A stretch of 10,008 nt of DNA from an uncultured Dyadobacter sp. (GTDB lineage Bacteria > Bacteroidota > Bacteroidia > Cytophagales > Spirosomataceae). Shown piece by piece: positions 4,592 to 8,062 of the stretch (its first letter is position 1; each line of letters opens with the position of its first letter). The notes under the pieces were generated by a model. It did no database searches. It had not been told where the DNA came from and was given only the letters and a program-made list of their open reading frames with translations. A program made the translations under genes and the position numbers. The stretch covers positions 1 through 10,008 of the forward strand of contig CAMLNK010000071.1 of NCBI GenBank assembly GCA_946481035.1. The letters are read 5' to 3'.

Positions 4592-5455
4592 ATGAAATGG
4601 ATCACGCGGGAGCGCCCCAAAATTGACCGGTTGGCATGTCCTTGGTTGATACGACGATTTATCGATGCAAACGCGGAGATCATCTATGTGCCCGAAAACG
4701 ACGTGCTAACCGAAGCGAAAAGGCTCGGCGCCACGCCATTTGACGTTCCCGGCGTGGAGTTCACCCATTATGACGACCAGTGCACGTTCGATTATTTTAT
4801 CAAAAAATACGAATTGAAAGATCCGGCACTGAACTTCATCGCGCCCATCGTGCGTGGGGCCGATACCGACGATCACACATTGGCAGTGCAATCCTCGGGA
4901 CTGTGGGCGATTTCCGCGGGGCTGGCTTACAATACGAAAGACGACTATGAGCTCCTGGAAAAAGGAATGCTCATTTACGACGCATTGTACAGCTGGGCGT
5001 TGCATTTGCGAAAAGAAAAGCACACGCAAAGCCCGACTGAGCATTTGCTTTTGCAGATTTACAAAACCTACATCAGCAACAAAGGCGAAAAGAAAACCAA
5101 GGTACCTGCATGGACGAAAGACCTTAAAAACCTCATTCAGGATCATATTGACACCAATCTGAACTTTAATCTGAAAATCGCGTCGGAAGAACTGGATGTA
5201 AACCCGGCCTACCTTTCGAGGGAATTTTCGCGGTACTTCGATAACCTTTCGTTTGGTGAATACATCCGGAAGCTGCGGATCGAGAAGGCCATTCAGCTGC
5301 TCGAATCCACGGACGATACGCTGGCGGAGATTGCCTACCTTACCGGGTTTTCGGACCAGAGCCATTTCAACCGCGTTTTCAAGGGGCATACCGGCCAGAC
5401 GCCCTCGGAATACAGAAAATTTGTCCGAAAAAGTAAAGGAAATACAAAACGTTAA
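4592..5455 (+). CDS. ChrB-type chromate-resistance domain fused to AraC-family HTH
   Basis: This 287-residue protein joins two modules. Residues 1 to about 140 match the Chrome_Resist domain (C-terminal domain of ChrB): 'WITRERPKIDRLACPWLIRR' at 3-22, 'RFIDANAEIIYVP' at 22-34, 'ATPFDVPGVEF' at 47-57, 'CTFDYF' at 64-69, 'IVRGADTDD' at 86-94 and 'YDALY' at 129-133. After a Lys-rich linker (about 141-172), residues 178-277 form an AraC double helix-turn-helix: 'YLSREFSRYF' in the first unit, then 'LAEIAYLTGFSDQSHFNRVFKGHTGQTPSEYR', a near-ideal second unit (244-275, read in two parts). ChrB in Proteobacteria is a chromate-responsive regulator of chrA; here an AraC reader replaces the usual ChrB N-terminal domain, which makes a sensor-regulator likely. 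It starts 1 base after the exporter stop. No chrA gene is in the window. The ligand is unknown, although Cys16, Cys64, Asp and His residues of the sensor domain are retained. Confidence 0.85.
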   Translation: MKWITRERPKIDRLACPWLIRRFIDANAEIIYVPENDVLTEAKRLGATPFDVPGVEFTHYDDQCTFDYFIKKYELKDPALNFIAPIVRGADTDDHTLAVQSSGLWAISAGLAYNTKDDYELLEKGMLIYDALYSWALHLRKEKHTQSPTEHLLLQIYKTYISNKGEKKTKVPAWTKDLKNLIQDHIDTNLNFNLKIASEELDVNPAYLSREFSRYFDNLSFGEYIRKLRIEKAIQLLESTDDTLAEIAYLTGFSDQSHFNRVFKGHTGQTPSEYRKFVRKSKGNTKR

Positions 5456-5531
5456 AACCGTTCTATCCTGCTTGCGCATTGGTTTTTAGAATTGCATGGC
5501 GGTTTGCCGCTTTCATCTAAAATCCCATGTT

Positions 5532-6101
5532 ATGCTCCGTCTTTTTACCGGAAAACTCCTCATTACGCTCTTTATCCTCATTTCGCTTTTGAATGTCGCC
5601 GCACGCGCGCAGCAGCAGGCCCCGCCCGCGTCGGCACCCGCAAGCACGGCCACGCCAGCACCCGCGCCCGTGTACCCGCGTGTAGCCGGTTATGTGGGCA
5701 TTCTGCACCCTATCCTGACTTTCAGCGAGGAGGGTACCACTACCAATTTCGATAGTTATTACGTGGTTGGGTTACCTACCGGCATCAATATCTGGAAAAG
5801 TCCCAAAATCGGCTTTTCCGCCGAGTTTGTGCCGCTGGTAAGAGCTGAGAAGGGTACGAGCAAGATGGCCAATTTTCTTTTCCACCCAGGTATTCTCGTG
5901 ACATTAGCACCCGGGCTTACCTTCGCCGGTCGTGCCGCTTTTGAAACGGCCGGGAGGTACGGCTTCACGCCGGTTTTGAATAAAATCGTGAAGAAAAATA
6001 AGAACAGCGGTTATTTTGTAGCGGTACCGGTGCCTTTCCGTTTCGGGAACGGGCACCCGGCGTCCGTCACAATAGGATTTCAGTTTGGGATCACATTCTG
6101 A
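5532..6101 (+). CDS. Secreted protein, probable small outer-membrane beta-barrel
   Basis: The 189-residue protein begins with a classical signal peptide (Lys8, hydrophobic core about residues 9-21, cleavage after 'AARA' near 26), followed by an Ala/Pro-rich linker of about 25 residues. The rest alternates polar and hydrophobic residues in short Gly/aromatic-rich strands ('GYVGILHPILTF', 'GLTFAGRAAFETAGRYG', 'SVTIGFQFGITF') and ends in Phe, the usual C-terminal residue of outer-membrane barrels. About eight strands would fit. I start it at ATG 5532, because the upstream ATG at 5496 would place 12 poorly charged residues ahead of the signal peptide. The gene follows the ChrB-AraC gene by 76 bases on the same strand and could be a last operon member, or have its own promoter. 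I do not recognise the family. Confidence 0.6.
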   Translation: MLRLFTGKLLITLFILISLLNVAARAQQQAPPASAPASTATPAPAPVYPRVAGYVGILHPILTFSEEGTTTNFDSYYVVGLPTGINIWKSPKIGFSAEFVPLVRAEKGTSKMANFLFHPGILVTLAPGLTFAGRAAFETAGRYGFTPVLNKIVKKNKNSGYFVAVPVPFRFGNGHPASVTIGFQFGITF

Positions 6102-7921: not shown

Positions 7922-8017
7922 AGATTTATCAATAGAATTAGGTTGGGGCACCTTGACGAGTCACAGGTTGCCAGAAGATCACAGAGCCTAACCTCTCCCT
8001 TCGTTCTCAATAAATCT
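7922..8017 (-). promoter_or_regulatory. SAM-I-clan riboswitch aptamer upstream of the cysteine desulfurase gene
   Basis: On the minus strand the conserved core 'GGCAACC' (7972-7966) ... 'AAGGTGCC' (7954-7947) of S-box RNAs is present. Helices drawn by hand: P1 AGATTTAT (8017-8010) with ATAAATCT (7929-7922), perfect. P2 outer GAAG (8002-7999) with CTTC (7977-7974). P2 inner AGAG (7996-7993) with CTCT (7986-7983), with a GG/GTGAT internal loop like the family's kink-turn. P3 GGC-A-ACC with GGT-GCC. A pseudoknot pairs TTAGG in the P2 loop (7991-7987) with CCTAA in the joining segment (7942-7938). These RNAs bind S-adenosylmethionine and usually lower expression when SAM is high. I cannot draw a P4 helix between the pseudoknot strand and P1 (only TTCTATTG), so it may be a P4-less variant. 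No terminator hairpin follows, so control is probably at translation or uses another platform. Confidence 0.8.
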
Positions 8018-8031
8018 ACAAATTCGATAGA

Positions 8032-8062
8032 CAAAGATTGATAAAAGATTTTAAAAATGCAA
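8032..8062 (-). promoter_or_regulatory. Promoter of the riboswitch / cysteine desulfurase transcript
   Basis: Read on the minus strand, TTG (8062-8060), a 20-base gap and AATCTTTG (8039-8032) fit the Bacteroidota pattern TTG-N19-21-TAnnTTTG with one mismatch in the -7 element. A transcript starting about 5 bases further on, near 8027, would begin some 10 bases before riboswitch helix P1, which is where a 5' UTR aptamer should sit. Confidence 0.6.

Follow-up and report, generated by a model that had tools for sequence, protein, structure and literature searches.

What does a riboswitch of the SAM-I clan do in front of a cysteine desulfurase gene, and is the arrangement peculiar to one locus or shared among related bacteria? 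The question is raised by a stretch of 10,008 nucleotides from an uncultured Dyadobacter sp. (the whole stretch is called the window below), on the minus strand of which an earlier reading of the letters alone, here called the original prediction, had recognised a promoter, an aptamer and a transcript leading to a NifS/IscS-type gene. The conserved arrangement described below suggests that related bacteria turn to sulfur mobilisation when methionine and SAM are scarce. The reading that we favour, with a probability of roughly 60%, is that a SAM-I riboswitch without P4 controls a dedicated desulfurase operon, where SAM would repress a sulfur mobilisation that supports methionine synthesis. Coordinates of the features are collected in Table 1.

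Table 1. Features of the desulfurase locus in the window
Feature	Coordinates	Strand	Evidence or remark
Sulfatase, N-terminal part outside the listed frame	9986-9024	minus	PF00884 93.6 bits; upstream, not in the riboswitch transcript
Promoter-like elements TTG (8062-8060) and ATCTTTG (8038-8032; TTTG 8035-8032)	8062-8032	minus	conserved, 22 aligned loci
Palindrome CTTTG-(T/C)CTAT-N7-(A/G)TAGATT, overlapping the P1 5' strand	8036-8013	minus	conserved element
SAM-I riboswitch aptamer without P4	8016-7923	minus	RF00162 47.3 bits; kept in 22 loci
P1 (8 bp)	8017-8010/7929-7922	minus	
P2a	8004-7999/7977-7973	minus	
P2b	7995-7993/7986-7984	minus	
P3	7972-7966/7952-7947	minus	
Pseudoknot of the P2 loop (5 bp), UUAGG with CCUAA	7991-7987/7942-7938	minus	
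Leader from aptamer to start codon, 113 nt	7921-7809	minus	consensus hairpin upstream of the start
Class-V PLP enzyme, NifS/IscS-type cysteine desulfurase, 392 aa	7808-6630	minus	PF00266 249 bits
Small ACT-like frame, 84 aa	6362-6108	minus	ACT_4 24.0 bits, below the 27-bit cut-off

A SAM-I aptamer without P4

Across the whole window a single Rfam match was found, to the SAM-I model RF00162, which is covered in full (model positions 1-108) at 47.3 bits (E 1.6e-8) and passes the gathering cut-off of 44.4. This score confirms the RNA switch of the original prediction, and the elements named there are present as well: a promoter, seen as promoter-like TTG and TTTG elements conserved in 22 copies, P1, a kinked P2 split by an internal loop, P3 and the P2-loop pseudoknot. 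All 27 pairs of the aptamer are intact and invariant in 22 homologous copies (17 distinct sequences), thus no covariation was found within this desulfurase-operon set, and support for the helices comes from the Rfam match and from a comparison of SAM-I copies that serve different genes. For the latter comparison, 105 distinct SAM-I segments were pulled by regular expression from the DNA of related genomes, and 101 of them form four of four pseudoknot pairs (G-U counted), as UAGG/CCUA (49), CAGG/CCUG (23) and UGGG/CCCA (20) among the variants. UAGG/CCUA is found at the desulfurase operon, UGGG/CCCA at metX and CAGG/CCUG at YceI. Since the search expression demanded GG and CC, just the other two pairs test freely, and across the SAM-I copies of different genes these two change in concert. 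The minimum-energy fold of the aptamer region was no better than that of shuffled sequences (z 0.40). RF00162 scores above its cut-off in 21 of 21 Dyadobacter desulfurase-operon copies, and in other genera it reached 48.1-70.9 bits at eight sites from seven sources.

The aptamer shares with SAM-I (RF00162) P1, the kink-loop P2, P3, the P2-loop pseudoknot, the conserved core and a score above the gathering cut-off, but differs in having a cysteine desulfurase as its target and in lacking the P4 hairpin, which is absent in 22 of 22 desulfurase-operon copies. Counting by script gave no more than 3 bp in 11 copies and no more than 2 bp in the other 11 at the P4 position, and these short stems enclose or overlap the pseudoknot strand in nearly all copies; the stem between P3 and P1 is 4-6 bp long in all 25 other SAM-I aptamers (metX, metY, YceI-TonB) of 21 Dyadobacter genomes. 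Because P4 is missing, we name the RNA a P4-less variant that passes the Rfam score, and not a full SAM-I. SAM-IV, according to the available part of PMC6890682, is likewise without P4, but carries PK-2 and P5, whereas no consistent complement to the P3 loop that would form PK-2 was seen here within about 37 nt downstream (22 loci), and RF00634 gave no match at sites in 7 genomes, which excludes membership in that class. SAM-I/IV has the clan core in common with the present aptamer, but the available part of PMC6890682 describes its P2 as unsplit and PK-1 as absent, so that it is unlike our aptamer in both respects (PMC6890682, PMC2864571, as far as their available parts go), and membership is also excluded by scores far below the RF01725 cut-off of 41.1: of five Dyadobacter desulfurase copies, two scored 22.3 and 24.3 bits and three gave no match, and one copy in genome G022 reached 32.8 bits. 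Of the three clan models proposed for checking the original prediction, therefore, RF00162 matches, RF01725 stays below its cut-off and RF00634 has no match at the relatives' sites.

The junctions may bear on the identity of the ligand. J3/4 is changed from AAUU to CCAA in 20 of 22 copies, J3/4 and J4/1 of the desulfurase-operon aptamers are unlike those of metX/metY aptamers in the same genomes, and the aptamer set is nearly invariant, as might be seen if the RNA had an altered affinity or recognised another sulfur metabolite. However, the positions of direct SAM contact are retained, and the aptamers of G112 and G136, also without P4 and also with desulfurase targets, keep the ordinary J3/4, thus we regard such a change of ligand or affinity as highly improbable, with SAM as the probable ligand. 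If so, the P4-less aptamer would also be a natural test of the contribution of P4 to SAM-I.

The downstream frame, which starts 113 nt after P1, is of the NifS/IscS type that had been predicted, as indicated by its PF00266 match and by the presence of the PLP lysine and the catalytic cysteine. The two residues, whose roles we take from alignment to solved desulfurases, are found in each of the 12 riboswitch-linked proteins that were aligned. Among curated models NifS, DndA and IscS score best, but none reaches its equivalog cut-off (356 against 531 bits for TIGR03402, NifS), and the best-scoring solved relatives are 1ecx and IscS 1p3w; judged by sequence, the protein is thus a member of the NifS/IscS superfamily that falls below the equivalog cut-offs of NifS, IscS, DndA and SufS.

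Linkage of aptamer and desulfurase in Dyadobacter and beyond

The aptamer lies ahead of the desulfurase in 30 of 30 named Dyadobacter genomes tested, directly in 20 and with a TlpA-like gene between in 10, and this conserved linkage supports the original interpretation of a SAM-I-clan RNA tied to a NifS/IscS-type gene. The first 21 of these genomes were picked for carrying this desulfurase (14 direct, 7 with the TlpA-like gene and then the desulfurase); the other nine were reached via the other paralogue alone, to lessen selection, and in 9 of 9 the aptamer was found at 112 bits or more (6 direct, 3 with a TlpA-like gene between). The TlpA-like gene has a signal-peptide-like start, and PF00578 was present in both copies tested. 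RF00162 gave 46 sites in the first 21 genomes, all above cut-off, which precede the desulfurase operon (21), metX (18), metY (3) and YceI and/or TonB-type genes (4). These last four constitute a third SAM-I site (L191-L194) before YceI and a TonB-type gene in G015 and G018, or before a TonB-type gene in G013 and G017, with a small downstream gene also present. The paralogues and other SAM-I sites of the window's own genome are presumably like those of its relatives.

Among the 80 best loci listed, the protein finds its closest relatives in Dyadobacter (Spirosomataceae), at up to 94% identity, and the same 80 contain a second desulfurase of about 50% identity in at least 14 of 21 Dyadobacter genomes. 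The fold, the active site and the best model matches, all of the NifS/IscS kind, would suit a second general sulfur donor for Fe-S clusters and tRNA thiolation, whose level follows SAM demand, in place of an enzyme of methionine supply. Yet the loci of the separate paralogue have no SAM-I, no gene for an Fe-S scaffold or for tRNA thiolation was recognised in the loci examined (neighbours scanned in part), and the neighbours that could be named are genes for sulfatases and for TlpA-like, YceI, ACT-like and TonB/SusCD proteins. A general donor is thus unlikely in our view, and a dedicated desulfurase is preferred.

A covariance model built from the 22 aptamers was used to search 200 genomes of the family Spirosomataceae. 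Among its best 30 sites, 21 of which fall in the first 21 Dyadobacter genomes, 18 lead directly to the desulfurase, 11 to a TlpA-like gene and then the desulfurase, and 1 (G181) to an ACT-like gene; the 31st-ranked site (the second in G156) also leads to an ACT-like gene. Weaker sites in G022, G026, G058, G112, G136 and G142 precede mixes of periplasmic genes (TlpA-like, YceI with PF04264, DsbD-N with PF11412, MauG-like with PF03150), a TonB receptor and the desulfurase. The desulfurase of G026 is collinear with the other genes and follows the site at a distance of about 9 kb, in a putative operon, while at G058 and one G142 site periplasmic genes and no desulfurase were found in the stretch examined. 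Locus L173 of G022 carries two SAM-I aptamers facing apart, 5016-5111 (-) and 5456-5552 (+), one leading to the desulfurase and the other to a TlpA-YceI-DsbD_N-MauG-TlpA operon. SAM-I itself is widespread in the family, with an RF00162 site in 146 of 150 genomes, and the sites that were read out lead mostly to metX, metY and metH-like genes.

Taking the other desulfurase loci from the 80 best listed, 58 of 59 have no SAM-I site. The exception (L074) is from Xanthocytophaga flavus, a member of another family, where the aptamer scores 68.4 bits and the desulfurase follows about 225 nt on. When the L074 protein was searched against 380 genomes of the order and the best 30 loci were scanned, SAM-I was present in six, namely two of Xanthocytophaga type, three of Dyadobacter type and G022. 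In a tree of 85 desulfurases, rooted at the midpoint, with several rows found through their riboswitch and G026 counted by its operon, all 27 riboswitch-linked rows lie on one side of a branch with 99/88 support, and riboswitch linkage takes one change in 98% of bootstrap trees, a number reached by 0 of 500 shuffles. L074 falls inside this clade, although its join with G136/G112 is flagged as possibly false, and four riboswitch-linked rows (L074, G142, G022 and G026) are flagged as long. Elsewhere in Cytophagales, SAM-I precedes metX/metY, sulfite-reductase-like and siroheme genes and a monooxygenase resembling SfnG. At L230, L232, L235 and L237 it stands before an ATP-grasp-like gene and a monooxygenase resembling SfnG/SsuD, for which the models were below cut-off at L230, the one locus of the four tested.

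Operon variants, promoter palindrome and leader

The original prediction had the transcript lead only to a lone NifS/IscS gene; the link holds, but "only" and "lone" are too narrow, as a conserved ACT-like frame follows 267 nt past the desulfurase stop and is probably the next gene of the transcript. Homologues of this frame occur in 23 loci besides the window, nearly all downstream and on the same strand: going by coordinates, 15 come directly behind the desulfurase, 5 behind SusC/SusD-type genes (SusCD domains verified in L001 and SusC in L206), 2 directly behind the aptamer and 1 elsewhere. The two cases in which the P4-less aptamer has the ACT-like gene as its immediate follower, with no adjoining desulfurase, are L171 of G156, 5042-4621 (-), and L249 of G181, 7943-7457 (-), and they mark the ACT-like gene as a target in its own right. 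Operons of relatives add TlpA-like, YceI, DsbD-N, MauG-like and TonB/SusCD genes, and sulfatases stand upstream of the operon in the window and in the three relatives tested (L001, L003, L006). In G112 metY adjoins the desulfurase, but is unlikely to belong to its operon, since by eye a terminator-like stretch and a promoter-like element of its own precede it.

These variants allow another history, in which the original target was the periplasmic module (TlpA-like, YceI, DsbD-N, MauG-like) with a TonB receptor, and the desulfurase came to stand behind the riboswitch as a passenger once the first gene was lost, for instance in the lineage of the window. Indeed, 7 of 21 Dyadobacter loci start with the TlpA-like gene, as do those of G022, G026 and G058, and the two Dyadobacter-type aptamers leading to the ACT-like gene alone point the same way. 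On the other hand, the desulfurase of G022 has a riboswitch of its own, that of Xanthocytophaga directly follows SAM-I, and loci that have lost the TlpA-like gene still encode the enzyme with its active site intact. We therefore give the passenger history slightly less credit still than the general donor, and take the desulfurase as a proper target of the switch.

The promoter-like elements, which we take to be of the Bacteroidota -33/-7 type, are strongly conserved (TTG in at least 90% and TTTG invariant across 22 aligned loci). The second of them overlaps a palindrome that is a possible operator, possibly sulfur-related, to judge from its occurrence. Its pattern, with up to 2 mismatches, gave 44 matches in 10 related genomes against 1 for the reversed pattern, and matches were present in 9 of the 10. 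Of 30 sites retrieved, 9 are with a riboswitch and 21 without; the first genes of the latter, mostly named by eye, include five sulfatase-like (one Pfam-confirmed), about five TonB-type, three binding-protein-like (one tested, no Pfam match), three ECF-sigma-like and one metY. The palindrome is absent from the six metX/metY leaders compared. This gene set is weak evidence, because the pattern contains a promoter element, such genomes are probably rich in sulfatase and TonB genes, and the first genes were mostly named by eye.

Comparison of the leaders revealed neither an intrinsic terminator nor a conserved expression platform, and the missing terminator makes translational or Rho-dependent control likelier. 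Sequestration of the start codon by the P1 3' strand (seen by eye) or by AUCCA (in the consensus fold) is not claimed, because the desulfurase start is not adjacent to the aptamer where a TlpA-like gene intervenes.

Putative SAM-repressed sulfur mobilisation and its precedents

SAM-I switches generally lower expression on SAM binding. By analogy, plentiful SAM would close P1 of the aptamer and lower expression of the operon, and at low SAM and methionine the desulfurase would be made and would take sulfur from cysteine or a related compound. The released sulfur could then enter homocysteine and methionine synthesis via MetX/MetY, whose genes have a second SAM-I ahead of them in relatives. Promoter palindrome and riboswitch may both control the operon, which would be part of a wider sulfur-scavenging set that includes sulfatases, TonB/SusCD uptake and periplasmic thiol-redox proteins. 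Genes of the PAPS-reductase and NIR_SIR families lie close together in 21 of 21 Dyadobacter genomes (for example G001 C25 118640-123330), although these families also match in 14 of 14 and 11 of 14 control genomes; as both are present, sulfate assimilation probably exists, and the desulfurase is unlikely to be the only source of sulfide and probably adds to, rather than replaces, the supply.

A broader proposal, which we put forward tentatively and with clearly less confidence than SAM control of the desulfurase operon, is that the lineage-specific P4-less SAM-I and the palindrome govern an otherwise undescribed sulfur-scavenging pathway. It would comprise outer-membrane uptake, periplasmic processing of an unknown sulfur compound by TlpA/YceI/DsbD-N/MauG-like proteins, an ACT-like sensor and a dedicated clade of cytosolic desulfurases feeding methionine and SAM synthesis. 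If SAM does control the desulfurase operon, its level would directly set sulfur release from cysteine, an RNA link between methionine demand and sulfur mobilisation, and uncharacterised periplasmic and uptake genes would be marked as a likely sulfur pathway that is testable in culturable Dyadobacter.

We know of no earlier riboswitch-controlled cysteine desulfurase, and the present case would be the first. In the open-access literature no paper was found joining SAM riboswitch and cysteine desulfurase with Bacteroidetes, Dyadobacter or Cytophaga, nor one joining SAM-I riboswitch, Bacteroidota and sulfur. The main text of PMC3766115 contains neither "desulfurase" nor "nifS", and the available parts of the literature on S-box, desulfurase and methionine, including PMC4239095 and PMC5359408, describe no SAM riboswitch before a desulfurase. 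SAM control of a desulfurase had been called less expected in the original prediction, which needs correction, since protein-based precedents exist: as given in the available parts of the two papers, csd is under predicted MetJ control in Vibrionales (PMC4239095), and metB-csd of Streptococcus pneumoniae is methionine-responsive and controlled by CmhR (PMC5359408). These systems have SAM- or methionine-linked control of a desulfurase in common with ours, but use DNA-binding proteins where a riboswitch is found here.

Two minor observations concern the surroundings of such loci. At L200 (619-3496) a family-2A encapsulin shell gene (PF19307, tested in L200 only) lies near the SAM-I/desulfurase locus; a shell is also found at L176 and L205, with desulfurase-like cargo of 610-655 aa at L200 and L205. 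In the window, 4592-5455 (+) encodes a ChrB C-terminal domain fused to an AraC-type DNA-binding domain and adjoins an EamA transporter.
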